The notes under the pieces were generated by a model. That model was not told the DNA's origin and made no database searches. It saw only the letters and a program-made list of their open reading frames with translations. From Halarchaeum nitratireducens (lineage in GTDB: Archaea > Halobacteriota > Halobacteria > Halobacteriales > Halobacteriaceae), in assembly GCF_014647155.1 (NCBI RefSeq), contig NZ_BMOQ01000006.1, positions 124,001-188,000 on the forward strand: 64,000 bases of DNA, read 5' to 3'. This document shows, piece by piece, positions 29,476 through 44,775 of the stretch. Made by a program: the position numbers and the translations under genes. Numbering within the stretch: the stretch's first letter is position 1; every line of letters begins with the position of its first letter.

Positions 29476-31227
29476 TCACGCGTCCGTGAGGGAGTCCATG
29501 TGCTGTTCTGCGGCCTCGTCGTAGATGGCGTCCCCGGGGTCGGGCGCGTCCTCGTCCACCTCGGCGTCGATGGCATCGTCGACGCGGAGGATGAGCGACG
29601 AGACCGCGGTCGCCGTCCGGTAGCTCTCCGTGCGCCGCGTGACGGGATCGAGGACGCCGGCCTTGGCGGTGTCGCCGATCTCCGCGGCCGGGAGAACGAA
29701 CCCCTGCCACGGGTCCGTCCGGTTCGCGGCGCGCAGGTCCGCCACCGTCTCGACCGGGTCGACACCGGCGTTGCGCGCGAGCGTGAACGGGAGCCGTTCG
29801 AGCGCGTCGGCGAACGCGGTCGTGGCGAGTGCGGCCCGCGATCCGTCGGCGCGTGCGGCGTCCCGGACGGCGGCGGCGGCGTGCGCTTCGGCCGCACCGC
29901 CACCGGGAACGACGCCGGGGTGCGAACCGCGTTCGCCGCGCGCGAGCGCGACCGCGGCGGCGGCCTGTCGAATCGACGTCGCCGCACGCTCGCCGAGATC
30001 GGCCGGGACGCCCTGCACGAGGACGCAGACGGAGTCCGGGGTCGCACAGTCCTCGAAGACGGTCATGCGGCGGGGGCGCGCGCGTGACTCGGCGCGCTCG
30101 ATGCGGCGTTCCGCGACGACGCCGGCGTGGCCGAGGTCGTCGGCGGAGACGTCGTGGAGGTCCTTGACGACGGTCGCACCGGTCGCGCGCGCGACGTGCG
30201 AGAGCTTGAGGCGGTTGACGGCGCGGATGCCGACGACGTCGTGTTCGGCGAGGCGTTCGAGGAAGCCGTCGTCGATACCGAGTTCGGCGACGACGACGTC
30301 GACGCCGGCGCCGTGGATGGTCTCCCAGACGTCCGTGCGCCACGCGTCGAAGACCGCGTCGAGGTCGGCAACGTCGGTCTCCTCGTCGACGCTGGCGGTG
30401 TAGTCGTCCGGGAGGTCGGGCGTCCGGAGGCCACCGCGGTCGTGGCCGCCGAGGACGAGCACGGAGGCGTCCTCGACGCGGTCGGGCATCGAGTCGAGGA
30501 CGCGCGCGCTCCGATCGAGGACGGTCCCGCGGACGAGGCGCGAGTCACCGAGGGAACCGTCGCGGATCGTGCGGACGGGGAGCGTCTTCGCGGTCGGATA
30601 GCCGACGCGTCCAGCGGCGTCACAGGCCAGCTTTGCCCACGTCTCGGCGAGTCCGCCGACGTCGTTTCCGGTCATGGCCGTGCGTGCGACGGACCGTGCG
30701 GCGGCGTCGGGATCGTCGAAGTCGTCGAGCGGGCGGGCGAGGTCGGCGAGCGCCTCGGTCGCCACGTCGTTCGCGCGCCGGTATCCGCGGATCAGGTCGA
30801 TCGGATGAACGCCGTCATCGACGAGCGATTCGGCCTCGCGCAGGAGAGCGGCGGCCAACGAGACGCTGGTAGTGACACCGTCGAAGACGTCCTCGCCCTC
30901 GACGTCGGTGTCACCGGGCCGTTCGGGGCCGACCATCCGGCGGACGACCGGCGCGACGGGGTGTTCGAGCGGGAGCGATTCGAGGATCGTCGCGCCGTCG
31001 CTGGTCGTGACGTAGTCGTCGACGGCGACCTGCCCCGGAGCGGGGTCTTGGCGCGATTCGAGAGCGTTGATCACGAGCTTGTCGCGGGACGCGGGCCCGT
31101 AGGTGGTGTCGAGCACGTCGGCGATGGCGCGGACCGCGACGACGTTCGCGTGTGGGAAGATCGGTGGGTCGACCCGCACGTCCTCGGCGTCGCTCTGACG
31201 TCCGGCGATTTCGGTCGGCGGAGACAT
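29476..31227 (-). CDS. Divergent group II chaperonin (thermosome/CCT-like) paralogue
   Basis: A 583-residue Cpn60/TCP-1 family protein. N-terminal VRAIADVLDTTYGPASRDKLVI matches the helix around the ATP site, and TSDGATILESLPLEHPVAP near residue 73 keeps the SDGATIL motif. The normally invariant GDGTTT loop is FDGVTTS near 113 and is preceded by an unusual insertion. VVPGGGAAEAHA near 415 and ILRVDDAID near the C-terminus are conserved. It lacks the GGM-rich tail of thermosomes. A TATA-like CTTTTACC 27 bases upstream gives it its own promoter. It may form a specialised ring, act with standard subunits, or have lost chaperone activity. Confidence 0.8.
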   Translation of the reverse strand: MSPPTEIAGRQSDAEDVRVDPPIFPHANVVAVRAIADVLDTTYGPASRDKLVINALESRQDPAPGQVAVDDYVTTSDGATILESLPLEHPVAPVVRRMVGPERPGDTDVEGEDVFDGVTTSVSLAAALLREAESLVDDGVHPIDLIRGYRRANDVATEALADLARPLDDFDDPDAAARSVARTAMTGNDVGGLAETWAKLACDAAGRVGYPTAKTLPVRTIRDGSLGDSRLVRGTVLDRSARVLDSMPDRVEDASVLVLGGHDRGGLRTPDLPDDYTASVDEETDVADLDAVFDAWRTDVWETIHGAGVDVVVAELGIDDGFLERLAEHDVVGIRAVNRLKLSHVARATGATVVKDLHDVSADDLGHAGVVAERRIERAESRARPRRMTVFEDCATPDSVCVLVQGVPADLGERAATSIRQAAAAVALARGERGSHPGVVPGGGAAEAHAAAAVRDAARADGSRAALATTAFADALERLPFTLARNAGVDPVETVADLRAANRTDPWQGFVLPAAEIGDTAKAGVLDPVTRRTESYRTATAVSSLILRVDDAIDAEVDEDAPDPGDAIYDEAAEQHMDSLTDA

Positions 31228-32187: not shown

Positions 32188-32287
32188 GTACAGATGATCG
32201 TCTGCGGTTCTTCGCGCTATTCCAATCACGTGAGCGTGTTTTTCCGACGCAAACATTCATGTGGTCACTTATCGACAGAGCGTACGT

Positions 32288-33526
32288 ATGAGTTTCACCC
32301 TCGATAGGGATCGACTAGTCGAGACGATGCGGGAGCAGGCGGACATCGGTGGCACGGAGAACGGCGGCCTCCATCGCCTCGCGCTCTCCGATGCCGACAA
32401 GGCGGTCCGGGACTGGTTCGACGAACGCCTCACGGAACTCGGCCTCGACGTTCGGGTCGACGAGTTCGGCAACATGTTCGCGCGCCGCGAGGGCGCCGAC
32501 CCGGACGCGGATCCGCTCCTGCTCGGCTCGCACCTCGACTCACAACCGTACGGTGGCATTTACGACGGCGCGCTCGGCGTCGTCGCGGCCATGGAGTTCG
32601 TCCACGAGCTCGAAGCGCGCGACATCGAAACCGAACGCCCGGTCGAGGTCGTGAACTGGACGAACGAGGAGGGGTCGCGCTTCCAGCCCGCGATGCAGGG
32701 AAGCGGCGTCTGGGCCGGCGAACTCGACCTCGAAGAGGAGTACGCGAAGACCGGCGCGGACGGTAATACGGTCGAGGAGGAACTCGAACGCATCGGCTAC
32801 AAAGGCGACGAACCGGCGGCGCCGCGAGGCGACTACGACGCCTACCTCGAACTGCACATAGAGCAGGGGCCGTTCCTCGAGGAGAACGACAGCGACGTCG
32901 GCGTCGTCACCGGTATCGTCGGCTTCACCTGGGGTGCGACGACGTACTACGGCGAGGCCGACCACACCGGATCGACACCGATGCAGTATCGCTCGGACGC
33001 GCTCGTCGCCGCGGCAGACGTCGTGACACAGGTCCGTCGGATCCCGAGCACGCTCGGCGACCGGACGGTCGGGACGGTCGGTTCGATCGAGGCGGAGCCG
33101 GACTCGATCAACATCATCCCCGGCGAGGTGACGTTCACGTGGGGGTTCCGCGATCCGAAACGCGAGGTCATCGACGAGGCGAAAGAGCGCGTCCTCGACG
33201 AGATCGATGCCGCGGCCGAACGCGAGGGCGTCGACTACGAGTGGGAAGAGCGCATGGACGTCGATCCCGTGCATTTCGCCGAGCGCTGTACGAGCGCGGT
33301 CGCCGACGCGGCCGACGCGCTCGGCTACGACGCGATGGAGGTGTTCAGCGGCGCCGGCCACGACGCGACGTACGCGAATCAGGTCTGCGATACCGCGATG
33401 GTGTTCGCCGTGAGCGAGGGCGGAAAGAGCCACACCGAGGAGGAGTACACGAGCTGGGACGACTGTTACGCGGCCGCGAACACGTACGCGCGCGCCGCCC
33501 TGACGCTCGCGGGACGAGCGAACTGA
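32288..33526 (+). CDS. hyuC: M20-family N-carbamoyl-amino-acid hydrolase / ureidopropionase / allantoate amidohydrolase (HyuC type)
   Basis: Binuclear-metal amidohydrolase of 412 residues that removes a carbamoyl group from products of hydantoin, dihydropyrimidine or allantoin ring opening. Motifs: GSHLDSQPYGGIYDGALGV near residue 80, NWTNEEGSRF near 125, ELHIEQGPFLE near 190, GEADHTGSTPM near 223 and FSGAGHDA near 356. The ATG start gives MSFTLDRDRLVETM. A hydantoinase is convergent downstream and a transporter is upstream. Substrate choice among beta-ureidopropionate, allantoate and N-carbamoyl amino acids cannot be made by eye. Confidence 0.9.
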   Translation: MSFTLDRDRLVETMREQADIGGTENGGLHRLALSDADKAVRDWFDERLTELGLDVRVDEFGNMFARREGADPDADPLLLGSHLDSQPYGGIYDGALGVVAAMEFVHELEARDIETERPVEVVNWTNEEGSRFQPAMQGSGVWAGELDLEEEYAKTGADGNTVEEELERIGYKGDEPAAPRGDYDAYLELHIEQGPFLEENDSDVGVVTGIVGFTWGATTYYGEADHTGSTPMQYRSDALVAAADVVTQVRRIPSTLGDRTVGTVGSIEAEPDSINIIPGEVTFTWGFRDPKREVIDEAKERVLDEIDAAAEREGVDYEWEERMDVDPVHFAERCTSAVADAADALGYDAMEVFSGAGHDATYANQVCDTAMVFAVSEGGKSHTEEEYTSWDDCYAAANTYARAALTLAGRAN

Positions 33527-33577: not shown

Positions 33578-34963
33578 TCAGGGCGACCAGTCAGGGATGT
33601 CGCGTTCGAGGAAGGCACCGTGGCCGGGATCGCCGACGACGTCGCCGTCGTCGGCGACGAGTTCACCGCGGACGTAGGTCCGTTTCACGCGGCCGGTGAC
33701 TTCGCGGCCCTCGTAGATGGAGAAGTCGGCGACCGACTCGTTGTCGTCGGCGGTGATCGTGTACGACTCCTCGGGATCGAAGACGACGATATCGGCGTCC
33801 GTACCGGGATCGAGGGTCCCCTTCCCGGACAGCCCGAACGTCTCCGCCGGTCGGGTGCACATCGCGCGGACGAGGAATGGGTAGGAGAAGCCGCGTTCGT
33901 TGATGGCCTCGTCATGGAAGACCGGGAGACTGGTCTGGAGGGCGTTCGCGCCGAAGGTGCTGTCCCACCAGTTCTCGACGGTCTTGCTTTCGAGCGTGTA
34001 GCCGCAGTGATCGGTGGAGACGACGTCGATCGTGGCCTCGGAGAGGTGCTCGAACATCGCCTCGATATCGTCGGGCGTGCGGATGGGCGGGGCGATCATG
34101 GCCTGGTTCCCGACTTCCTCGTAGACGGTGTCGTCGAGGGTCGTGTAGTGCGTGCACGTCTCCGTACGGACCATGCTCCCGTCGTCGCGGAACGCCGCGA
34201 GCACCTCGGCGGACTTCCGACAGGAGGTGTGGACGCCGTAGTACTTCGCGCCGGCCTCGGTGGCCATTCGAACGGCGTCCTCGGCGGCCATCGCTTCCGC
34301 ATAGTCCGGCCGGGATTGCGGGTAGTCCTCGGGGTCGCCGCGCCCAGCTTCCCGGAAGCGCTCGGTGAGCATCTGACAGACGGAATCGTCCTCGGTGTGG
34401 ACGGCGGCGACCGCGTCGAGCTCCGCGAGCCGTTCCAGAACGCGCTGCATGAAGCCGTTCTGGAGTCCGTGGTCGTACGTGCTGAACATCTTGATCGAGG
34501 TGACGCCGTCCGCGACGACGTCATCGAGGTCGTCGAGCACCGCTGGGTCGTCCGCCGTGATCGCGCCGTGGAGCGAGAAGTCGATGAGCGCGTCCTCGCC
34601 CCGTTCCTTCGCGGCGTCGATCGCCTCCGGAAGCGTGTCATCGCCGTCGATGACGCCCATCTCCCCCGCCCAGCGCTGGAAGGCGAACCCGATCAGAGTG
34701 GTCGTGCCGCCGACGGCGGCGGCGCGCGATGCGGTCTCGTAGCTATCGGCGGAGAAGGGGTCGTCGACGTGGACGTGCGGGTCGACGATCCCGGGAAGGA
34801 CGAGTCGGCCGGTCGCGTCAACGACGTCGTCGGCGTCCGGGAACGAGTCCCGTTCTCCGACAGCGTGGATCTTCTCGCCATCGATGGCGACGTCGGCATC
34901 GTAGGTGCCGTTCGCCGTCACGACAGTGCCACCTCGAATAACGGTATCGATTGTCACAACCAT
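33578..34963 (-). CDS. Cyclic amidohydrolase, dihydropyrimidinase/hydantoinase type (copy 2)
   Basis: A 461-residue paralogue of the enzyme at 7160-8539, with the same metal motifs (DPHVHVDDP, SIKMFSTYDHG with the carboxylated lysine, VHTEDD, YYGVHTS, STDH) and nearly identical C-termini. Differences near the substrate loops (CGYTLESKTVENWW here, VAAARADKEDRPWW there) suggest different specificities. Paired with the carbamoylase it would convert a dihydropyrimidine or hydantoin to an amino acid. The TATA-like ATTTTTATCTA (near 34988-34998) is placed for a leaderless start. Confidence 0.87.
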   Translation of the reverse strand: MVVTIDTVIRGGTVVTANGTYDADVAIDGEKIHAVGERDSFPDADDVVDATGRLVLPGIVDPHVHVDDPFSADSYETASRAAAVGGTTTLIGFAFQRWAGEMGVIDGDDTLPEAIDAAKERGEDALIDFSLHGAITADDPAVLDDLDDVVADGVTSIKMFSTYDHGLQNGFMQRVLERLAELDAVAAVHTEDDSVCQMLTERFREAGRGDPEDYPQSRPDYAEAMAAEDAVRMATEAGAKYYGVHTSCRKSAEVLAAFRDDGSMVRTETCTHYTTLDDTVYEEVGNQAMIAPPIRTPDDIEAMFEHLSEATIDVVSTDHCGYTLESKTVENWWDSTFGANALQTSLPVFHDEAINERGFSYPFLVRAMCTRPAETFGLSGKGTLDPGTDADIVVFDPEESYTITADDNESVADFSIYEGREVTGRVKRTYVRGELVADDGDVVGDPGHGAFLERDIPDWSP

Positions 34964-35368
34964 TCGGTTGCACCGCGAGTAGATAAAAATTCGGTGAGGT
35001 ATGATGAATTTGAGTCTGTATACAACGCATATATCGAGGTATAGTGGCTGTATAGGCAGTAGAGTGGGACGGTCGTATCTGCCCCGATCGCCGCGCCAGT
35101 AAGTATTCAGTGTTTGTCCCGGAATGACTACGTATCGAAGAACAATGATCTACGCTCTGCTCACTCACTGAACGTGTTTCTGACTTTTTCGGGTTTACAG
35201 ATACATAGTTGCATCTGATCCTATTACGTCCTTATGGATTTTATTACACCGATATTGCCGTAAACCATTCGGGTCGTCGGCAGGCCGTCGGGGCTCAGCC
35301 GAGCGACGTAGACGCGGCCAATCGGTCGGCGGGGGATTTATCTACTGACCCGACGAGTCTCCGGTACT
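34964..35368. promoter_or_regulatory. 405-base intergenic region between divergent genes
   Basis: AT-rich compared with its neighbours and without a convincing gene. The leftmost 35 bases hold the promoter of the hydantoinase. TTTATCTA at 35337-35344 is at leaderless distance from the GTG of the biotin carboxylase gene. I see no tRNA, transposon end or clear repeat in the middle 300 bases. Confidence 0.5.
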
Positions 35369-36712
35369 GTGTTCGATACGGTGTTGATCGCGAACCGCGG
35401 CGAAGTCGCAGTGCGCGTCATGCAGGCGTGTGGGGAACTGGGGATCGAGACGGCGGCCGTGTACAGCGACGCGGACGAGAACGCCAAACACGTTCGGTTC
35501 GCCGACGAGGCGTATCACGTCGGCGCGTCGAAAGCGAAGGCGAGCTATCTCGATCAAGACGCCCTCCTCGACGCCGCTCGGGACGCCGACGCCGACGCCA
35601 TCCACCCGGGTTACGGCTTCCTCGCGGAGAACGTCTCCTTCGCGGCCAACGTGGAGGACAGCGAGTTCGTCTGGATCGGTCCACCGAGCGACGTGATGGC
35701 CGATTTCGGCGAGAAGACGACGGCGCGTGCGATCATGGCGGACGCCGATGTCCCGGTTGTTCCGGGAACGGCAGAGCCCGTCGACGACGCCGACGCGGTG
35801 CGCGCGTTCGGTGAGGAGCACGGCTACCCCGTCGCGATCAAGGCCGACGGTGGCGGCGGTGGACGCGGCTTCCGTGTCGTCCACGGACCCGACGAGGCGG
35901 CCTCGCAGTTCGACGACGCGGTCCGCGAGGCGGACGCGTATTTCGACAACCCGAACGTCTACCTCGAACGGTTTCTGGAGGACCCGAAACACATCGAGGT
36001 GCAGATCATCGCGGACGAACACGGGAACGTCCGCCACCTCGGGGAGCGCGACTGCAGTATTCAACGCCGACAGCAGAAACTCGTCGAGGAGTCCCCCTCA
36101 CCCGTTCTCGACGAAGCGACCCGTGAGCGACTGTGCGCGGCCGCCTGTCGTGGGGCCGCCGCCGCCGGCTACGTCAACGCCGGGACCGTCGAGTTCCTCT
36201 ACGAGGGCGGCGAGATCTACTTCATCGAGACGAACGCCCGGATTCAGGTCGAACACCCCGTCTCGGAGAGCAGGACGGGTATCGACCTCGTCAAGTGGCA
36301 ACTCCGCGTCGCGGCCGGCGAAGAACTCGACTTCGCGCAGGCCGACGTCGATCCGCGTGGGACGGCGATGGAGTTTCGCATCAACGCCGAGGACCCGTCG
36401 AACGACTTCACGCCGCTCCCCGGGACGCTCTCGACGTACCGGCCGCCGCGCGGTATCGGCGTCCGCGTCGACGACGGCGTCGACGAGGGCGACGCAATCG
36501 CGCCGTTCTATGACTCCATGTTCGCCAAGGTCGTCGTCTCCGGGACCGACCGCGAGGAGGTGCTGGCGCGCGCCCGCCGCGTGCTCACGGAGATCGAGAT
36601 CGAGGGCGTGCCGACGACCGTCCCGTTCCACCGTGAGCTCCTCGAAGACGAGACGTTCATCGAGAACGAACACACGACCAAATACGTCGACCGGGCGTAC
36701 GGCGGCGACTGA
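35369..36712 (+). CDS. Biotin carboxylase subunit (AccC-like)
   Basis: ATP-grasp enzyme of 447 residues that carboxylates biotin on a carrier protein. The N-terminal domain has [21 protein letters not shown], then [10 protein letters not shown] near residue 75, the glycine-rich loop [11 protein letters not shown] near 158, [17 protein letters not shown] near 228 and [14 protein letters not shown] near 285 with the catalytic Arg. It ends about 5 bases from the convergent pxpA-like gene. With the biotin carrier and PxpB/PxpC proteins next door it likely works in a dedicated carboxylase, not in fatty-acid synthesis. Confidence 0.88.
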
Positions 36713-36716
36713 GCGC

Positions 36717-37478
36717 TCAGGCGATCTCGTCGAGGGACGCGAGCTCGATGTCGTGTTCCTCGATGCGGGCGTGGATCGCGCGGAGCAACTCGACGGCCTC
36801 CGGGTTGTCGCCGTGGATGCAGATGCTCTCCGCGGGCACGTCGATCTCCTCGCCGTTCGCGGTCTCCACGACGCCGTCGGTAGCGATGGAGACGAAGCGG
36901 TCGGCGACGAGTTCGGGGTCCTTGTCCGCGACGGACTGCTCGACGATGAGCGAGCGATCCGCTCGGTAGTCGATATCGACGTACCCCTCGAAGACCGCGC
37001 GGAGCCCCTCGACATCCCGTGCGACCTCGTAGATGTGCATGTCGGTCGCGAGGTAGATGAGGTCCTCGTCGACGTCGAGGATCCCCTCCATCGCGGCGCG
37101 CGCGTGCTCCGAACTCTCCGAGAGCATCGAATACATCGCTCCGTGTGGCTTGACGTGCTGGAGTCGCACGCCGCGCTGGCGGGCGAACGCGTCGAGCGCA
37201 CCGAGCTGGTAGGTGACGTAGTCACGGACTTCCGCGGGCGTCGCGTCCATCCGCCGGCGTCCGAACCCCATCTTGTCCGGCAGTCCGGGATGGACGCCGA
37301 TGCCGACGTCGTGATCGGTGGCCATCTCGACGGTGTCGCGCATCACGTGCGGGTCGCCCGCGTGGTAGCCGGCGGCGATGTTCGCCGACGTAATGTACGG
37401 CATCACGTCCTCGTCGCGCCCCATCCGCCAGTTCCCGAAGCTCTCGCCCATGTCACAGTTTATGTCAATTTGTACCAT
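36717..37478 (-). CDS. pxpA: LamB/YcsF family protein, 5-oxoprolinase subunit A (PxpA)
   Basis: A 253-residue TIM-like metal hydrolase family member. The N-terminus IDINCDMGESFGNWRMGRDE is diagnostic, followed by NIAAGYHAGDPHVM near residue 33 and GVHPGLPDKMGFGRR near 57, with VKPHGAMYSML near 109 and CIHGDNPEAVELL near 220. In bacteria PxpA works with PxpB and PxpC to open 5-oxoproline using ATP. A TATA-like GCTATATGCG (near 37500-37509) gives leaderless spacing. It is the last gene of the minus-strand set pxpB-pxpC-carrier-pxpA. Confidence 0.92.
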   Translation of the reverse strand: MVQIDINCDMGESFGNWRMGRDEDVMPYITSANIAAGYHAGDPHVMRDTVEMATDHDVGIGVHPGLPDKMGFGRRRMDATPAEVRDYVTYQLGALDAFARQRGVRLQHVKPHGAMYSMLSESSEHARAAMEGILDVDEDLIYLATDMHIYEVARDVEGLRAVFEGYVDIDYRADRSLIVEQSVADKDPELVADRFVSIATDGVVETANGEEIDVPAESICIHGDNPEAVELLRAIHARIEEHDIELASLDEIA

Positions 37479-37568
37479 GTCGTGTGGTTACGGACGGCCT
37501 CGCATATAGCTTGGGTCGCGAAGGTGGCAGGCGTCGCGCCGCGTGACGGACGGCGGACGCCCCGGCCG

Positions 37569-37811
37569 TCACTCCAGTTCGACCAGCGGCTGGTCGGCCG
37601 TGATTTCGTCCTCGTTCTCCACGAGGAACGCCGCGACGGTTCCGGCGTGATCGGCTTCGATTTCGTGGAAGTTCTTCATCACTTCGACGAGGCCAACGGG
37701 GTCGCCTACGTCGACGCTGTCACCGACCTCGACGAACGGTGGGTCCTCGGGGTCGGGGCGACGGTAGAAGACGCCCGGCATCGGTGCGTTGATGGTCGTT
37801 TTCTCGGACAT
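37569..37811 (-). CDS. Biotin/lipoyl carrier protein (AccB/BCCP-like, short)
   Basis: An 80-residue single-domain biotinyl carrier. The attachment site reads VEVMKNF with Lys 46 as the modified residue, a variant of the usual AMKM. The domain spans the whole protein (NAPMPGVF at the start, GDSVDVGDPVGLVEV before the site, IEADHAGTVAAF after it). The long Pro/Ala linker of acetyl-CoA carboxylase carriers is missing. Its place between pxpC and pxpA and opposite the biotin carboxylase argues that it serves the PxpABC-like complex. Confidence 0.87.
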   Translation of the reverse strand: MSEKTTINAPMPGVFYRRPDPEDPPFVEVGDSVDVGDPVGLVEVMKNFHEIEADHAGTVAAFLVENEDEITADQPLVELE

Positions 37812-37885
37812 GCGTGGGCTATCTCTCGAATTTCGTGCCGGTCATATATCCTTTCGGGTGTCCTCGACGGCGCTCCGGAGACCGC

Positions 37886-38851
37886 TCACTCGACGGCGGC
37901 GCGCGCCGCATCGAGTCGCTCGGCTCTCGTCTCGCGTGCGTCGAGCGCGGTATCGACGTCGACCTCCTCGAAGTAGACCGAATCGTGCGTCTGGCGCTGG
38001 GCGAGGCGCTCACGGTCAGCGCTGATGACCGTCCCGACGGTCGCGTAGCCGCCGCCCGTGACCGCGTCCTGCATGAGGACGATCGGTTTCTGCGGGACCT
38101 GAATCGACCCGACCGGATAGCCGAGGTCGACGACGTTCGACGGATCCGTCCCCGCACCGAAGGGCTGATCGCGCTCCTCGAACTCGACGTCCGGCCCGTC
38201 GAGTCGGTAGCCGACGCGGTCGGCCTCGGGGGTGACGGTCCACTCGGCGGAGCAGAGTTCCGCACGGCTCTCGGCGGTCAGTCGGTGATCGTTCATTCCG
38301 AGGACGACGCGAACGGTCTCCTCGTCGGCGTATTCGGGGACGTACTCGTCGGGCACCGTCGCGCCGACGGCCGGACGCTCTGTCGGTGTCGCCCCGACCG
38401 GCAGTTCGTCGCCCGCTTCGAGTCCACGACCCTCGTGGCCGCCGATTCCGACGAGCGTGTACGTCGAGCGACTGTCCATCACTTCGGGGACGTCGAGACC
38501 GCCGGCCACGGCGAGATACGCGCGCGCGCCGCTCGTCGCGAACCCCATATCGAGTTCGTCGCCGGCCTCGACGGCCACGCTCTCCCAAGTGCCGATCGGT
38601 TCGCCCTCGATCGTCGGGGACATATTGGCCCCCGTGACCGCGATGACCGCGTCCTCGGTGAACGTCGCCGTGATCCCCTGGTACGTCATCTCTATCGTCG
38701 CCGCGCTCTCCTCGTTGCCGACGAGGTGGTTCGCGAGCGCGTGCGCGTAGGAATCCATCGCCCCCGAAGGGGGCACGCCGATGTGGTAGTGGCCGGTCCG
38801 CCCGTCGTCCTGTACCGTGCTCGCCACGCCGCCGGCTTCGATCTCGATCAT
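37886..38851 (-). CDS. pxpC: PxpC/KipA family carboxyltransferase-like protein (AHS2 domain)
   Basis: A 321-residue protein with the AHS2/KipA landmarks STVQDDGRTGHYHIGVPPSGAMDSYAHALAN near residue 11, AVTGANMSP near 70, RAYLAVAGGLDVPEVMDSRSTY near 107 and a C-terminal KPIVLMQDAVTGGGYATVGTVI. The family forms the C-terminal half of the carboxyltransferase domain of urea carboxylase as well as 5-oxoprolinase subunit C. Its start overlaps the end of pxpB by 4 bases, indicating a coupled heteromer. Confidence 0.9.
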   Translation of the reverse strand: MIEIEAGGVASTVQDDGRTGHYHIGVPPSGAMDSYAHALANHLVGNEESAATIEMTYQGITATFTEDAVIAVTGANMSPTIEGEPIGTWESVAVEAGDELDMGFATSGARAYLAVAGGLDVPEVMDSRSTYTLVGIGGHEGRGLEAGDELPVGATPTERPAVGATVPDEYVPEYADEETVRVVLGMNDHRLTAESRAELCSAEWTVTPEADRVGYRLDGPDVEFEERDQPFGAGTDPSNVVDLGYPVGSIQVPQKPIVLMQDAVTGGGYATVGTVISADRERLAQRQTHDSVYFEEVDVDTALDARETRAERLDAARAAVE

Positions 38852-39750
38852 GCGACCGCCTCCAAGAGCTGCGCGTTATACTCGTTCGGTGCCTCGAAGA
38901 ACTCCTCGGGTGAGAACGTCACGTCGGCCATATCGTACTCGTACGTTCCGGCTTCGACCTCGTCTCGAATCGCGTCGTATTCGTCCCGGTCGATCCGCCG
39001 GTAGTTGATGATGTCGCCCGGGTTCGGAAGCACCATCGAGTCCTCGAAGGCGGGCAGTTCCTGATCGACGTCGAGCACCTCGACCGGCGTGCGCCCGTAG
39101 AGCTGGTAGCCCCCGGCGCCCGCGACGGGGTAGACGACGGAGAACGCGCCGCCGAAGCCGACGGCGCGGCTCGGCGTCGCGGTTCGCGGCTCGACGTATT
39201 TCGGGACCTCCAGCTGGCGTTCGCGGGGCACCATCTGGAAGCACCACGGGAGACCCGGGACGAACCCGACCATCGTCACCATGTGCGGGGCGCCGACGAA
39301 GGCGTCGATGAACGACTCGACGTCGTCGTAGCCGTTGAGCTCCGCCGAATATTCGAGGTCGGTCGCGTCCGGGTCCTGGTGGCGGTCCCGGAAGTCCATC
39401 AACGTCTCGTGCGTCCATGGGTCCTCGAAGAGGACGGGAACGTCGATAACGCGGGACTCCCACGCGTATTCCGCGACGTCGATCGACGCTTCGATGTCCT
39501 TCAGCTCGGCGATGACATCGTCGGGATGGACGACGTCGGGGTCGATCCGGAGCATGTACGATGCGTTCCCCGGGCAGTTCTCGACGACACCGTCGATGTC
39601 GCGCTCGGCGACCCGCTGGGTGATCGCCATCGCTTTGAAATTGGCGGTGAAGCTCATCTCCTCCGCGAGATCGACGAACACGTGATCGTCCCCGCCGTAC
39701 TCGTATCGTGGATCGGGGAGATCGACCGGTGTGATCCGTTCGCTTGCCAT
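38848..39750 (-). CDS. pxpB: PxpB/KipI family protein (AHS1 domain)
   Basis: A 300-residue AHS1/KipI domain protein. Typical strings are ENCPGNASYMLRIDPD near residue 59, VGFVPGLPWCFQMVP near 168, YVEPRTATPSRAVGFGGAFSVVYP near 190 and GGYQLYGRTPVEV near 218. The ATG gives MASERITPVDL and lies 27-30 bases downstream of a TATA-like CTATACATA (near 39776-39784), so a TTG 15 bases further upstream is rejected. The N-terminal 50-100 residues are longer than in some bacterial PxpB proteins. It is first of the set pxpB-pxpC-carrier-pxpA. Confidence 0.9.
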   Translation of the reverse strand: MASERITPVDLPDPRYEYGGDDHVFVDLAEEMSFTANFKAMAITQRVAERDIDGVVENCPGNASYMLRIDPDVVHPDDVIAELKDIEASIDVAEYAWESRVIDVPVLFEDPWTHETLMDFRDRHQDPDATDLEYSAELNGYDDVESFIDAFVGAPHMVTMVGFVPGLPWCFQMVPRERQLEVPKYVEPRTATPSRAVGFGGAFSVVYPVAGAGGYQLYGRTPVEVLDVDQELPAFEDSMVLPNPGDIINYRRIDRDEYDAIRDEVEAGTYEYDMADVTFSPEEFFEAPNEYNAQLLEAVA

Positions 39751-39917
39751 GCTATGAGGTAGCAACGTCGGTTCGGTATGTATAGATATGGGTCGGGCCC
39801 CGAACCGTTCGGAGGCGAGGCGGTCGATACCGGGTCACGACCGCGGGCCGGTCGATGCGCATGCCCGTTTGAGGGGACGGGGAGTACCGGGATCGCCGTC
39901 ATCCACGTCCGACGTGG

Positions 39918-41381
39918 TTACGCGTCCGGCCAGCGCTCGATGTACACCGTCTCGTCCGTGTAGAAGCGAACGACGTCCTCGGACTGCGCGTGCAGGTCGC
40001 CGAAGAACGAGTCCTTCTGGCCGCCGAAGTGGAAGAACGCCATCGGTGCGGCCGTACCCGCGTTGACCGCGAGATTGCCCGCCTCCGCGCGGTGACGGAA
40101 CGTGCGCGCGTCAGCCCCGCTGTCGGTGAAGAGGCTGGCCGCGTTCCCGAAGTCGGACTCGTTGAGGACGTCGATGGCCGCGTCGACATCGGGGGCGGGC
40201 ATGAGGCCGAGGACGGGGCCGAAGATCTCCTCACGCGCGATGGACATGTCCGGCGTCACGTCGCGGAAGACGCAGGGGCCGAGGAAGTTGCCGTCCTCGT
40301 AGCCCGCGACCTCGACGTCGCGGCCATCGGCGACGAGTTCCGCGCCCTCGTCGATCCCCGCTTCGACGTAGTCACGGACGCGCCGCTCGTGTTCGGCCGT
40401 GATGAGCGCGCCGATGGTCGTCTCCTCGTCGAGGCCGTCGCCGACGACTTGCGCCTCGGCCTCCGCGACGACGCGATCGACGAACTCCTCGTAGACCGAT
40501 TCCTCGACGAGGACGACGTCGTTGGCGAGACAGCGCTCGCCCCCGCACGCGAACGCCGAGGAGACCGTCTTCTCGGCCGCGAACGCCAAGTCCGCCGACT
40601 CGGCGACGATAACGTGGTTCTTCGCACCGCCCTGCGCCTGGACGCGCTTCCCGTTCGCTGCGGCCTTCTCGTAGATGGTCTCCGCGACGGGCGTGCTCCC
40701 GACGAAGGAGACGCCCTCGATGCCGTCGTGTTCGAGGACGGCGTTCACGGTGTCGGCGCCGCCGTGGACGAGGTTGACGACGCCGTCCGGAAAGCCGGCC
40801 TCGTCGACGAGTTCGAAGAGCTTCACGGCGGTGAGCGGATCGCGCTCGCTCGGCTTCAGGATGAAGGCGTTACCGGAGGCGACGGCGTACGGGAGGAACC
40901 AGAGCGGGATCATCCCGGGGAAGTTGAACGGCGTGATCGCGGCGAACACCCCGAGGGGCTGACGGACCGCGGTCTCGTCGATGTCCGGGGCGGCGTTCGA
41001 AACGTGGCCGGCCTGCATGAGCCGCGGCATCCCGCAGGCGACCTCAACGTTCTCGATGCCGCGGCGGAGTTCGCCCTTCGCCTCAGCGAACGTCTTCCCG
41101 TGTTCTTCGACCAGCGTCTCCGCGATGTCGTCGAGGTTCGCCTCGAGGAGTTCCTTGAACCTGAAGAGTGGCTGGATTCGCTCCTCGACGGGTGCCGCCC
41201 GCCACGTCTCGAACGCCGCCTGCCCCGCGGCGACGGTCTCGTCGACGTCGTCCGCGGAGCTGAACGCGACGTGTGAGAGGGGGTCCCCCGTCGCCGGGTT
41301 CAGGACGTCTTGACTCTCGTCACCGGTTGGCTCGGTCCACTCGCCGTTCACGTAGTTCCGGACCGCGTCGTAATCGCTCAC
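39918..41381 (-). CDS. mmsA: CoA-acylating methylmalonate/malonate-semialdehyde dehydrogenase
   Basis: Aldehyde dehydrogenase superfamily enzyme of 487 residues that would turn malonate semialdehyde or methylmalonate semialdehyde into acetyl- or propionyl-CoA. Typical MmsA strings: AAITPFNFPGMIPLWFLPYA near residue 145, VGSTPVAE near 232, QAQGGAKNHVIV near 253 and the catalytic Cys region FACGGERCLAND near 283. The GTG start is fixed by the CTTATATC box (reverse strand of 41403-41410) 26 bases upstream. Divergent from a class III aminotransferase, giving the last two steps of beta-alanine or beta-aminoisobutyrate breakdown. Confidence 0.9.
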   Translation of the reverse strand: MSDYDAVRNYVNGEWTEPTGDESQDVLNPATGDPLSHVAFSSADDVDETVAAGQAAFETWRAAPVEERIQPLFRFKELLEANLDDIAETLVEEHGKTFAEAKGELRRGIENVEVACGMPRLMQAGHVSNAAPDIDETAVRQPLGVFAAITPFNFPGMIPLWFLPYAVASGNAFILKPSERDPLTAVKLFELVDEAGFPDGVVNLVHGGADTVNAVLEHDGIEGVSFVGSTPVAETIYEKAAANGKRVQAQGGAKNHVIVAESADLAFAAEKTVSSAFACGGERCLANDVVLVEESVYEEFVDRVVAEAEAQVVGDGLDEETTIGALITAEHERRVRDYVEAGIDEGAELVADGRDVEVAGYEDGNFLGPCVFRDVTPDMSIAREEIFGPVLGLMPAPDVDAAIDVLNESDFGNAASLFTDSGADARTFRHRAEAGNLAVNAGTAAPMAFFHFGGQKDSFFGDLHAQSEDVVRFYTDETVYIERWPDA

Positions 41382-41546
41382 GGCACTGTGTGACGACCCC
41401 ACCGATATAAGCGTTCCGAGAATCTGAACAATGTATGGATAGTATGGCGTTTTCAAAATTTTCTTTGCCCGATGATCGGATAGAGCAGAGTATTGTATTC
41501 CTACACTCCGTATCGGTAGAAAGTTTAATGTTGTCATGATGGAGAG
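41382..41546. promoter_or_regulatory. Divergent promoter region of mmsA and the aminotransferase
   Basis: Toward mmsA, a CTTATATC box on the reverse strand of 41403-41410 is at leaderless distance from the GTG. Toward the aminotransferase, TTTAATG at 41524-41529 lies 18-35 bases from the two candidate ATGs. The AT-rich stretch between could bind a shared regulator such as the Lrp protein at 44257. Confidence 0.55.
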
Positions 41547-42881
41547 ATGGAGACACCGATGTCGGATAGACGAGCGCTCAACGATATCGAACAGCTCGAC
41601 AAGAGACACGTGTTCGGAACGTGGGCATATCAGAGTCAGGTCCAGCCGCGTCAGATCACCGAGAGCGACGGGGTCCGCTTCACCGACGCGAGCGGACACG
41701 AGTTCCTCGATTTTTCCGGCCAGCTCATGTGTTCGAATCTCGGTCACTCGGCATCGGGCGTCGCGGACGCGATCGCCGAGCAGGCCGCCGAGGGCGCGTA
41801 CTTCGCCCCCGGATTCACGACGGAGGTGCGCGCGAAGCTCGGCGCGAAGCTCGCAGAGGTCACTCCGGGTGATCTCTCGAAGACCTTCTTTTCGACCAGC
41901 GGGACGGAGGCCGTCGAGGCCGCCATCAAGATCGCGAAGTTCTACACCGGGAAGGACAAGATCGTCTCGCGCTACCGCTCCTACCACGGCGCGACCGCCG
42001 GATCGATCAGCGTCACGGGCGATCCGAGGCGTCTCGCCGCCGAGCCCGGCGTTCCGGGGGCGATAAAGGCACCCGACCCGTACGCGTACGGATCGACGCT
42101 CGATCCGATGCAGAGCCTCGACTACATCGACGAGATGCTGATGCTCGAGGGCGACACCGTCGCGGCGGTGCTCGTCGAGCCCATCGTCGGCTCGAACGGC
42201 ATCCTCGTGCCGCCCGACGAGTACCTCCCGCGGCTCAAGGAGATCGCACACGAGCACGGCGCACTGCTCATCTGCGACGAGGTCATGGCCGGCTTCGGCC
42301 GTACCGGCGAGTGGTTCGGCTGCGACGTCTTCGACGTCACGCCCGACATCATGACGATGGCGAAGGGGCTCACGGGCGCCTACCAGCCCCTCGGCGCGAC
42401 CATCGTCACCCCGGAGATCGCCGACTACTTCGAGGACACCATGCTCACGCACGGGCACACGTACGCCGGCCACCCCGTGGCGTGCGCGGCCGGCCTCGCG
42501 GCTATCGAGACTTACCAGGAAGAGGGGCTCATCGAGCGCGCCGGTGCGATCGGTGACTACCTCGAAGCACGAATCGATGACCTCGCCGAGGCCCACCCGA
42601 GCGTGGGTGACACGCGTGGTGTCGGGCTCTTCCGCGGGATCGAGCTGACGCGAGATGCGGAGCGGCGCGTTCCGTTCGGTGACCGTGAGGACAAGCTCTC
42701 GAAGGACTCGAACGTCGTCGACGAGGTGGCCGACGCCGCCTTCGCGGAGGGAACGTACGTGGCGAACATGATCAACACCCTCATCGTCGCGCCCCCGCTC
42801 ACGATAACCGAGGACGAGATCGACGAGGCGATTACCGCCCTCGACGTCGCACTCGATATCTCCGACGACGCGATGGACTGA
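41547..42881 (+). CDS. Class III (omega-amino acid) PLP aminotransferase
   Basis: A 444-residue fold-type I aminotransferase. Motifs: GTWAYQSQVQPRQIT at the N-terminus, FFSTSGTEAVEAAIKIAK near residue 113, SYHGATAGSISVTGDPRR near 143, LICDEVMAGFGRTG near 241 and the PLP Lys in TMAKGLTGAYQPLGA near 273. A second ATG 12 bases on has GGAG six bases before it and is an equally good start. Divergent from mmsA, it likely transfers the amino group of beta-alanine or beta-aminoisobutyrate to pyruvate or 2-oxoglutarate. It ends 69 bases before the IS element. Confidence 0.87.
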   Translation: METPMSDRRALNDIEQLDKRHVFGTWAYQSQVQPRQITESDGVRFTDASGHEFLDFSGQLMCSNLGHSASGVADAIAEQAAEGAYFAPGFTTEVRAKLGAKLAEVTPGDLSKTFFSTSGTEAVEAAIKIAKFYTGKDKIVSRYRSYHGATAGSISVTGDPRRLAAEPGVPGAIKAPDPYAYGSTLDPMQSLDYIDEMLMLEGDTVAAVLVEPIVGSNGILVPPDEYLPRLKEIAHEHGALLICDEVMAGFGRTGEWFGCDVFDVTPDIMTMAKGLTGAYQPLGATIVTPEIADYFEDTMLTHGHTYAGHPVACAAGLAAIETYQEEGLIERAGAIGDYLEARIDDLAEAHPSVGDTRGVGLFRGIELTRDAERRVPFGDREDKLSKDSNVVDEVADAAFAEGTYVANMINTLIVAPPLTITEDEIDEAITALDVALDISDDAMD

Positions 42882-42942
42882 TCTCTCGACAGATCCATGT
42901 ACGCCCGTTCAGTTAATTCCTGTACTACCGGCCTACATTTAG

Positions 42943-42950
42943 AATGGCGA
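42943..42950 (+). repeat. Left target-site duplication of the IS element
   Basis: AATGGCGA directly abuts the left terminal inverted repeat and is repeated exactly at 44214-44221 directly after the right one. Confidence 0.85.
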
Positions 42951-43130
42951 GGCTGTGTTGAAATCCTATTGGTTCGACACCTTTCCAGCTGAAACAGCCG
43001 TTAGTTAGAATTGCGCATCTCATAGTATTCATCCCCACCCCTTGCAGAGGAATCGCGTATCACGGGGGGGGACGTTCTGCTGGGACGCACTGAAGCATTG
43101 TTTTGTATCTCGAGTAGAAATACGTCGCTC

Positions 43131-43433
43131 ATGGTCCCCAATATCAGCGAAGTGTTATTCAACGAGCCACAAGGCCGTCGAATCGGACTTTTCCAGTTCG
43201 GCCTGTCGCTTACCTTCTTGTGTATGTTCGCGTATGCCTGGAGTGTCGGCGACGCTGGCGAAACCCGATGGTTACTATTTATGATCGTCGGAACTGCGCT
43301 GTCGGGAATCGCCGAATCTCTCCCAGAGACCCAGCTACAGGCGGTAGGCGTACTCCGTTTTACGGCGGGTCTCGTATTGCTGTGCGTCGTCGCTGCCCCG
43401 TTCCTCGGTCTCGGATTTATTATCGGAGGATAA
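43131..43433 (+). CDS. Passenger membrane protein inside the IS element
   Basis: A 100-residue protein with three hydrophobic stretches (around residues 18-36, 48-62 and 74-97), starting MVPNISEVLFNEPQGRR. I do not recognise the family. TTTTGTA at 43101-43107 lies 27 bases before the ATG, a leaderless-type promoter, which favours the ATG over upstream in-frame starts. It is convergent with the transposase and lies wholly within the IS ends. It is probably cargo, perhaps an accessory factor or a captured host gene. Confidence 0.65.
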   Translation: MVPNISEVLFNEPQGRRIGLFQFGLSLTFLCMFAYAWSVGDAGETRWLLFMIVGTALSGIAESLPETQLQAVGVLRFTAGLVLLCVVAAPFLGLGFIIGG

Positions 43434-43465
43434 CCGCTGGTGTTGACGTTCTCTATATCTAATGT

Positions 43466-44161
43466 TCAGAGTGCCTTGTCGATGTTGTGAGTGAGACAGA
43501 CGACAACGAGTTCCCGGAACTGCTTCCACCAGTGACGTGAATGGACGAATGCGCCGTATTTCCGTTTGAGGCGAGAGTTCACCGTTTCGTTCTGACTGCG
43601 CTGACCGTAGAGATCGGCATCCAACCGAGCATTCCACGCTTCGTGAAGAGACGAGAACTCGCGGTGCTTGATAAGCGGACGTGTCGTCGTTACGTGTACG
43701 TCGAAAATCGCGTTTGACCTTGTGTCCACGAGGAGCGTGACTTTCAACTGCTGAATCGTCAACTTCGTTCGCTTCATGTAGTGCTTCGAGGCGTGACTTC
43801 GGTCGAACACAGCGGCATCGATCTCGACGACACCGTTAGTCGGAAGAAGCGTGACTGAGAGATTGAGAAGAACCCGCCAAACAGCCATGTCAAGGCGGTT
43901 GAACGCCTTACACAACGTCGAAGGAGACGGAATTTCCTGAAGATTGAGGGCGCTCCGAACCCGAGGCATCTCAATAAGTTCGTCAAGGAGCGTCCTGTAC
44001 GTCGTATTCTTCCGCACCTTGAGACAGAGGAGGACGATGTGTTGATGAAGTGTGTATCGCCGTTTCGAGAATTTCGATGAGTAGCGAGCGACAGTTCGCT
44101 GAGCCAAGTGATATGCTCGCTCAACAAACCGGAGTAACTGTGACTTCGGGAGGGCTTCCAT
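43466..44161 (-). pseudogene. IS5-family (ISH-type) transposase with internal in-frame deletion
   Basis: The 231-residue product matches ISH transposases at both ends: FSKRRYTLHQHIVLLCLK near residue 30, PSPSTLCKAFNRLDMAVWRVLL near 78, the first catalytic Asp in VEIDAAVFDRS and the catalytic Glu in NETVNSRLKRKYG. At about 43681 the text jumps from VHVTTTR straight to PLIKHREF. Known relatives have roughly 45 residues there, including the second catalytic Asp (DKGYD). The frame stays open, so a protein may be made but should be inactive. Confidence 0.82.
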
Positions 44162-44213
44162 CCGGTCAGACTACCGGACGAACCTGTAACCCTCTGAGGA
44201 TTTCAACAGAGCC

Positions 44214-44221
44214 AATGGCGA
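44214..44221 (+). repeat. Right target-site duplication of the IS element
   Basis: Exact copy of AATGGCGA at 42943-42950. It sits only 6 bases before the TTATAA box of the next gene. Confidence 0.85.
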
Positions 44222-44256
44222 CGGAATTATAAGTAGAATGAGTGAGACGGAGGGGT

Positions 44257-44775
44257 GTGTCCAAACAGACGACGGGTGACGTCGATCTCGACGAGACGGA
44301 TCTCGAACTCCTCGAGTACATCGAATCCGACTTCGACGTGAGCCTCGAGACGCTCTCCGATCACCTCGAGTTATCGAAGTCCGCGATCCACTATCGACTC
44401 AATAAGCTTCGGGAGGACGGCGTCGTCACCGGAACGACCGCCGACCTCGACCCGCTCGCCTTCGGTCTCGACATGGTCGCGCTCACGCAGGTGACGGTCG
44501 TCCACGAGAGCGGCTACTCGGATGCCTTGGGAGCGCGGCTCAGCGCGGTCAGCGGAGTCGAGCAAGTCTACTATACGATGGGAGACGTCGATTTCGTGCT
44601 CGTGGTTCGCGTACAGGACCGCGAGCAGATGAACGACGTCATCGAGGAAGTCATCGCCATCGACGGCGTCAATCAGACGTCCTCGCGCTTCGTTATGGAC
44701 GAGATCCGCGGCGACGAGGGAACCGTCGAGAATCTCCGCGAAGACGCACTCGAGGCTCTACGGGGTGGGGACTGA
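44257..44775 (+). CDS. Lrp/AsnC family transcriptional regulator (second)
   Basis: A 172-residue regulator with N-terminal HTH (DLDETDLELLEYIESDFDVSLETLSDHLELSKSAIHYRLNKL) and a C-terminal RAM-type sensing domain (GVEQVYYTMGDVDFVLVVRV). The GTG at the start is supported by TTATAA at 44227-44232, 27 bases upstream; another in-frame GTG lies 15 bases earlier. The IS element has replaced everything upstream of the core promoter. It most likely regulated the aminotransferase/mmsA pair before the insertion separated them. Confidence 0.85.
   Translation: MSKQTTGDVDLDETDLELLEYIESDFDVSLETLSDHLELSKSAIHYRLNKLREDGVVTGTTADLDPLAFGLDMVALTQVTVVHESGYSDALGARLSAVSGVEQVYYTMGDVDFVLVVRVQDREQMNDVIEEVIAIDGVNQTSSRFVMDEIRGDEGTVENLREDALEALRGGD

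Follow-up and report, generated by a model that had tools for sequence, protein, structure and literature searches.

Which reaction is carried out by a gene set that joins the parts of a biotin-dependent carboxylase to those of a 5-oxoprolinase? This question is raised by five adjacent genes of the archaeon Halarchaeum nitratireducens, located in a stretch of 64,000 nucleotides of contig NZ_BMOQ01000006.1 (positions 124,001 to 188,000), which is called the window here and to which all coordinates refer. The genes encode a biotin carboxylase (BC), a biotin carboxyl carrier protein (BCCP), the two carboxyltransferase (CT) proteins PxpC and PxpB, and the hydrolase PxpA; in NCBI, the names given to them are 5-oxoprolinase and acetyl-CoA carboxylase. 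Our analysis indicates that this module is a real and widespread variant, whose activity is putative. We see an even chance that the five genes form one ATP- and biotin-dependent system, which would open a cyclic amide (a lactam or a cyclic ureide) via PxpA. The module consists of the following genes:

35369–36712, plus strand: stand-alone BC of 447 amino acids with a GTG start, carrying the Pfam domains Biotin_carb_N, CPSase_L_D2 and Biotin_carb_C
36717–37478, minus strand: PxpA, a LamB/YcsF hydrolase of 253 amino acids belonging to the biotin-type clade described below (LamB_YcsF PF03746, 294 bits)
37569–37811, minus strand: BCCP, a minimal biotin carrier of 80 amino acids (PF00364; NF005457 (PRK07051), 109 bits with a cut-off of 87)
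37886–38851, minus strand: PxpC/AHS2, CT subdomains A and B, 321 amino acids (CT_A_B PF02626, 313 bits)
38848–39750, minus strand: PxpB/AHS1, CT subdomains C and D, 300 amino acids, in a long form like that of urea carboxylase (CT_C_D PF02682, 128 bits)

All five genes are intact, and open reading frames as well as profile matches bear out the original prediction, made from the letters of the window, that they adjoin each other at 35369–39750. The genes for PxpB, PxpC, BCCP and PxpA follow in this order head to tail on the minus strand, those for PxpB and PxpC overlapping by 4 bases. BC is transcribed towards PxpA, their stop codons being 4 bases apart. BC, CT subunits and BCCP are separate open reading frames on both strands and not the single BC-CT-BCCP chain of urea carboxylase (UC). 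The idea that the five genes are fragments of a broken single-chain UC was rejected: in dozens of genomes their order and strands, together with an intact start and stop for each, are what separate genes display.

Do these genes belong together? In a survey of 394 haloarchaeal genomes from 86 genera, PxpC (PF02626) was found in 49 genomes, and a free-standing BCCP of the window type (NF005457 above its curated cut-off) was found in 49 as well. Both sets are the identical 49 genomes, without an exception either way, and span 25 of the 86 genera. This includes genome G063, where roughly 60 kb separate PxpC from the BCCP gene. The kinship of the genomes makes a naive probability for this co-occurrence meaningless; the pattern is nonetheless absolute. 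In most inspected loci of Haloarchaea, Actinomycetota, Bacillota and Pseudomonadota, BC and PxpA adjoin PxpBC. Because PxpC and BCCP share exactly the same genomes, the five genes appear to be one inherited unit and not a chance assembly. The original prediction had combined BC, carrier, CT and PxpA, had named the co-occurrence of the five genes across genomes as its check and had allowed that the set may occur elsewhere. This check has now been run; with the perfect match of PxpC and BCCP and the conserved loci, the combination stands as one unit, and the set is common in the four phyla just named. It is therefore widespread and not particular to the source genome; its bacterial versions, such as those of Brevibacillus, Achromobacter and Arthrobacter, do not call for high salt. 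Literature searches for the gene set turned up papers on the mum operon, discussed below, and on plain PxpABC, but none that describes a PxpABC dependent on biotin.

For the biotin part of the module, the catalytic residues expected of a BC of biotin-dependent carboxylases in the broad sense are intact. Compared to E. coli AccC, 14 of the 15 checked positions are kept in the window BC and only H236 differs (Q). The kept residues include K116, K158, H208, K237, E275, E287, R291, E295 and R337 in window numbering, the corresponding AccC positions including K116, K159, K238, E288, R292, E296 and R338. The carrier contains the motif EVMKNF, which predicts a biotinyl-Lys46 and agrees with the lysine that had been named as the target before. 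Genes with a biotin-ligase domain are present in the source genome, so that an MK-motif biotinyl domain and a candidate ligase occur together. The only other BC of the genome is a BC-BCCP fusion of 625 amino acids, which is encoded on another contig beside a biotin-ligase-domain gene. Since this fusion exists elsewhere, the window BC appears to be an extra, dedicated copy. In a BC tree, the housekeeping BC of the genome is the sister of the haloarchaeal module BCs, the module BCs of the Bacilli are placed near the BC domain of UC, and the remaining ones are found elsewhere. That one lineage of CT and PxpA has acquired different BCs more than once suggests that the module needs a BC.

Which type of CT do PxpB and PxpC represent? 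Against curated models, PxpB reaches 110 bits with the UC model TIGR02712 and 72 bits with the PxpB model TIGR00370 (cut-off 145), and PxpC reaches 216 bits with the 5-oxoprolinase equivalog NF045499, for which 500 are needed; both stay below the equivalog cut-offs of 5-oxoprolinase PxpABC. A tree built from 85 PxpB+PxpC pairs places the window pair in a clade of 39 members with a support of 100, here called biotin-type, which adjoins the single-chain UCs (joint support 99) away from E. coli PxpBC. The clade also holds in each protein alone (support 97 and 99), in trees built with gappy columns removed. In these single-protein trees, the union of UC and biotin-type clade is not strictly on one side of a branch, since the divergent, unlabelled L243 and L245 fall on the UC side. 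Therefore, biotin-type PxpBC are taken to be a clade of their own in proximity to UC, and no more is claimed.

Diagnostic CT residues were derived from sequence conservation and not from the structure papers on UC. K184, Y185, T192 and Y215 of PxpB are common to UC and the biotin-type clade, where ordinary PxpB has R, mostly R, V/I and W, respectively. Likewise, N239, D242 and Y245 of PxpC are shared, the ordinary residues being mostly E, S and aliphatic, and the window PxpC displays the UC-type residues P27, N239, D242 and Y245. An AlphaFold 2 model of PxpB (mean pLDDT 91) has its best fold matches with K. lactis urea amidolyase/UC (E 9e-24, TMq 0.78–0.80, about 296 residues), and a TM of only 0.55–0.56 with E. 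coli YbgJ. Tree, shared residues and the modelled PxpB fold are consistent with an AHS2+AHS1-type CT near the UC lineage. They uphold the UC-like CT of the original prediction, which had called for this comparison with single-chain UCs, and the window CT appears to be of the UC type and not of the 5-oxoprolinase type. Many positions are fixed in the biotin-type clade yet unlike UC, for example H124 and Q172 of PxpB and P230, F231, A263 and V264 of PxpC, which argues for a substrate other than that of UC. In Aneurinibacillus, Brevibacillus, Domibacillus and Ammoniphilus (L053, L060, L061, L065, L066, L070, L074), another, divergent pxpB-pxpC pair comes after the biotin-type set. These second pairs form their own clade of 8 members in the PxpB+PxpC tree, and in such loci a single BC, carrier and PxpA may serve two CTs.

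PxpA of the biotin-type loci forms one clade (support 91), which suggests that it travelled together with the biotin-type CT. The window PxpA is a member of the LamB/YcsF family by its profile match (PF03746) and keeps the family-wide metal/hydrolase residues D9, H39, D42, D68, H112, H222 and D224. An R occupies position 180 of 26/26 ordinary PxpA and of 7/7 PxpA of the short biotin-linked type; this position is E in 50/50 haloarchaeal biotin-type PxpA and mainly T, E or Q in the bacterial members. At position 169, R is present in 26/26 ordinary PxpA, L or I in the haloarchaeal and L or R in the bacterial biotin-type members. The window PxpA has I169 and E180 in place of the R169/R180 of 5-oxoprolinase. 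As R180 is a putative substrate contact, its loss is read as a probable change of substrate away from 5-oxoproline.

How would such a system work? In a first step, BC would carboxylate the biotin on Lys46 of the carrier using ATP and bicarbonate. The carrier would then visit the UC-like PxpC-PxpB CT, where the carboxyl group would be transferred to the ring N-H of the substrate. The N-carboxylated and thereby activated ring would be hydrolysed by PxpA, a metal-dependent hydrolase. The resulting carbamate would lose CO2 and yield an amino acid, which could be degraded by a class III aminotransferase and an aldehyde dehydrogenase. Each biochemical step, from biotinylation through carboxyl transfer to ring opening, is inferred, as is the class of the substrate. 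In its strictest form, this would be a new kind of enzyme, a cyclic amide hydrolase (lactamase) that depends on biotin and would be widespread in archaea and bacteria, in which carboxybiotin activates the ring N-H for PxpA and bicarbonate is returned, so that no CO2 is fixed; we propose this tentatively and rate it at somewhat below an even chance. If true, biotin would gain a new role in activating an amide for hydrolysis, and many genes across phyla that are named acetyl-CoA carboxylase subunits or 5-oxoprolinase would be misnamed. It would further bear on the relation of ATP-dependent PxpABC to UC, since both families meet in the module. Enzymes which open stable lactams are sought for polyamide monomers.

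The neighbouring genes favour a lactam-like substrate. They were counted by profile searches within 8 kb of 85 biotin-type loci (39 after strict dereplication) and 25 ordinary loci. A class III aminotransferase is present in 28/85 biotin-type vs 1/25 ordinary loci (dereplicated 13/39, p=0.0055), and in three loci, from Ruegeria, Agrobacterium and Aneurinibacillus, it exceeds the cut-off of the GABA-transaminase model TIGR00700. The large subunit of a molybdenum (Mo-) hydroxylase was found in 26/85 vs 0/25 loci. Mo-hydroxylases can convert N-heterocycles into cyclic amides. Since ring opening of these would give amino acids for the aminotransferases, a lactam-like substrate would fit this context, which, among the urea, ureide or lactam considered by the original prediction, points to a cyclic amide over urea.

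Some observations weigh against a biotin-dependent opening of a cyclic amide. The link to Mo-hydroxylase is not significant when the loci are strictly dereplicated (5/39, p=0.15), and the gene context varies between loci. In clade members from Nocardia (L099), Nocardioides (L108) and Paenarthrobacter (L039), neither BC nor BCCP accompanies the module, distant copies not having been searched for. Furthermore, short 5-oxoprolinase-like PxpBC also accompany BC and BCCP (L169–L171), so that biotin genes alone are no proof of the mechanism.

The actinobacterial biotin-type loci L039, L094, L099 and L108 share one composition, PxpABC with an aminotransferase and an aldehyde dehydrogenase and no nearby BC or BCCP; a carrier may be supplied from another locus, or biotin dependence may have been lost. 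The short-PxpBC clusters, found in Bradyrhizobium, Microvirga and Limosilactobacillus, resemble the module in having BC, one or two BCCPs and PxpABC together, but differ in their 5-oxoprolinase-like PxpBC (W in PxpB, S in PxpC) and in a PxpA with R169 and R180. Within the Rhizobiales, L169, L170 and L179 combine the short PxpBC with BC, two different BCCP-like proteins and a PxpA of the R169/R180 type, and appear to be a second kind of biotin-linked PxpABC.

The module is embedded in a larger catabolic locus, whose hydantoinase (33578–34963) and semialdehyde dehydrogenase (39918–41354) flank it directly, neighbours that the original prediction did not mention. The following features are relevant here:

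29476–31227, minus strand: divergent Cpn60/TCP-1 family protein (PF00118, 300 bits), between two ABC-transporter permease genes
32261–33526, plus strand: M20 N-carbamoyl-amino-acid/allantoate amidohydrolase (NF006769, 468 bits with a cut-off of 452; TIGR01879 above cut-off)
33578–34963, minus strand: dihydropyrimidinase/hydantoinase-like amidohydrolase (TIGR02033, 326 bits with a cut-off of 393)
39918–41354, minus strand: CoA-acylating (methyl)malonate-semialdehyde dehydrogenase (MMSDH; TIGR01722, 529 bits with a cut-off of 448.5)
41547–42881, plus strand: class III (omega-type) aminotransferase (PF00202, 311 bits)

Besides these, the wider locus contains an asparaginase, an LLM oxidoreductase, a deacetylase, an ABC transporter and an Lrp regulator. 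The same wider locus is present without the module in Halarchaeum sp. CBA1220 (L259), whose hydantoinase shares 84% identity with the window protein; window positions 34997–39919 have no counterpart there. PxpC was not found in other genomes of the genus Halarchaeum, and the nearest relatives of the module belong to another family (L136; PxpB 88%, PxpA 87%, BC 83%). Both facts argue that the module was gained horizontally and inserted into a dihydropyrimidinase/N-carbamoylase/MMSDH locus. For Haloferax volcanii, passages of PMC6801745 describe a homologous uracil/ureide locus, HVO_A0293–A0306, as upregulated on L-alanine. It likewise has a transporter, an LLM oxidoreductase, dpyS, amaB2, mmsA and gabT6; unlike in the window, biotin or Pxp genes are unmentioned in these passages.

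Could the module simply serve this surrounding pathway, working next to the hydantoinase to open hydantoin, dihydrouracil or a similar cyclic ureide? Its position between dihydropyrimidinase and MMSDH would fit, as would hydantoinase or M20 genes near the module in some other haloarchaea (L045/L261, L033, L046, L148, L150). We regard this as unlikely, since Halarchaeum sp. CBA1220 keeps the whole locus without the module, which thus appears to be an add-on not required by the ureide pathway, and since within 8 kb a hydantoinase was found in only 2/85 and M20 in 4/85 biotin-type loci. An ordinary ATP-dependent 5-oxoprolinase, with BC and BCCP as incidental neighbours or spare acyl-CoA carboxylase subunits, would match the NCBI names and the fact that the window PxpA exceeds a PxpA subfamily cut-off. 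Prokaryotic PxpABC (Niehaus 2017, cited by PMC13274462) has homologous, adjacent PxpA, PxpB and PxpC. In this ordinary system, unlike in the module, PxpB is short, the diagnostic CT positions hold R/R/W and S, and PxpA carries R180; most of its sampled loci lack BC and BCCP. Scores of 72 of 145 for PxpB and 216 of 500 for PxpC, the perfect co-occurrence of PxpC with BCCP, the UC-type CT combined with the loss of R180 and the separate BC-BCCP fusion of the genome render this explanation improbable. That BC and carrier feed an acyl-CoA carboxylase, which PxpBC merely binds or regulates, seems very improbable. In PDB 9yx5, an AHS1-AHS2 pair is bound to a mycobacterial biotin-dependent long-chain acyl-CoA carboxylase, which also speaks for our main reading, as it shows that proteins like PxpBC can physically engage a biotin-dependent enzyme; however, no acyl-CoA carboxyltransferase gene was seen at the locus, a housekeeping BC-BCCP exists elsewhere in the genome, and PxpBC retains the UC-type CT residues.

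A split UC that makes allophanate, with PxpA being accessory or acting on allophanate, is rather improbable as well. UC (EC 6.3.4.6; K. lactis 3VA7/5I8I) has the same BC, AHS2+AHS1 CT and BCCP functions, and its CT clade and fold adjoin those of the window, but the module is made of four separate polypeptides plus PxpA and belongs to a separate clade with conserved residues of its own, many of them unlike UC. Allophanate hydrolase above its curated cut-off was found in 5/394 haloarchaeal genomes and in 0/49 of those with the module, the source genome included, which extends its earlier reported absence from the window to whole genomes. As the partner of UC is lacking in all 49, plain urea catabolism by the module is unlikely. 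In addition, 4/4 sampled UC loci adjoin allophanate hydrolase and/or urea-transporter-type genes, and the inspected biotin-type loci do not. The nearest experimentally tested relative found is the mumTLUHC operon of A. baumannii, which resembles the module in that it includes mumC, encoding a BC, together with mumH, encoding an 'allophanate hydrolase' of CT type (PMC5050338). Here, mumC was required for growth on urea nitrogen, in favour of a split UC, and mumH was not, which speaks against it (PMC5050338). An apparent mum architecture with PxpA is displayed by a Klebsiella plasmid locus (L178), together with fused PxpBC, NRAMP and hydro-lyase genes. Its PxpBC lies on the ordinary side of the CT tree, so that it would be a relative by design and not a close one by descent.

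Some minor observations concern the loci themselves. On a plasmid of Agrobacterium rubi (L040, 9075–16954), genes for an LLM oxidoreductase and cofC, cofD, cofE, cofH, npdG and gabT come after the module, hence a plasmid-borne F420 synthesis set lies beside the module in Agrobacterium. In the window, the MMSDH-aminotransferase-Lrp block (39920–44747) is inverted relative to Halarchaeum sp. CBA1220 (L259, 12301–15867), and a transposase-like open reading frame (43466–44161, minus strand) lies between the aminotransferase and Lrp genes. The Cpn60-like gene takes the same place in CBA1220 (L259, 19726–21477) and has relatives near a hydantoinase in Haladaptatus (L033), an odd location for a chaperonin-like protein within a catabolic locus.

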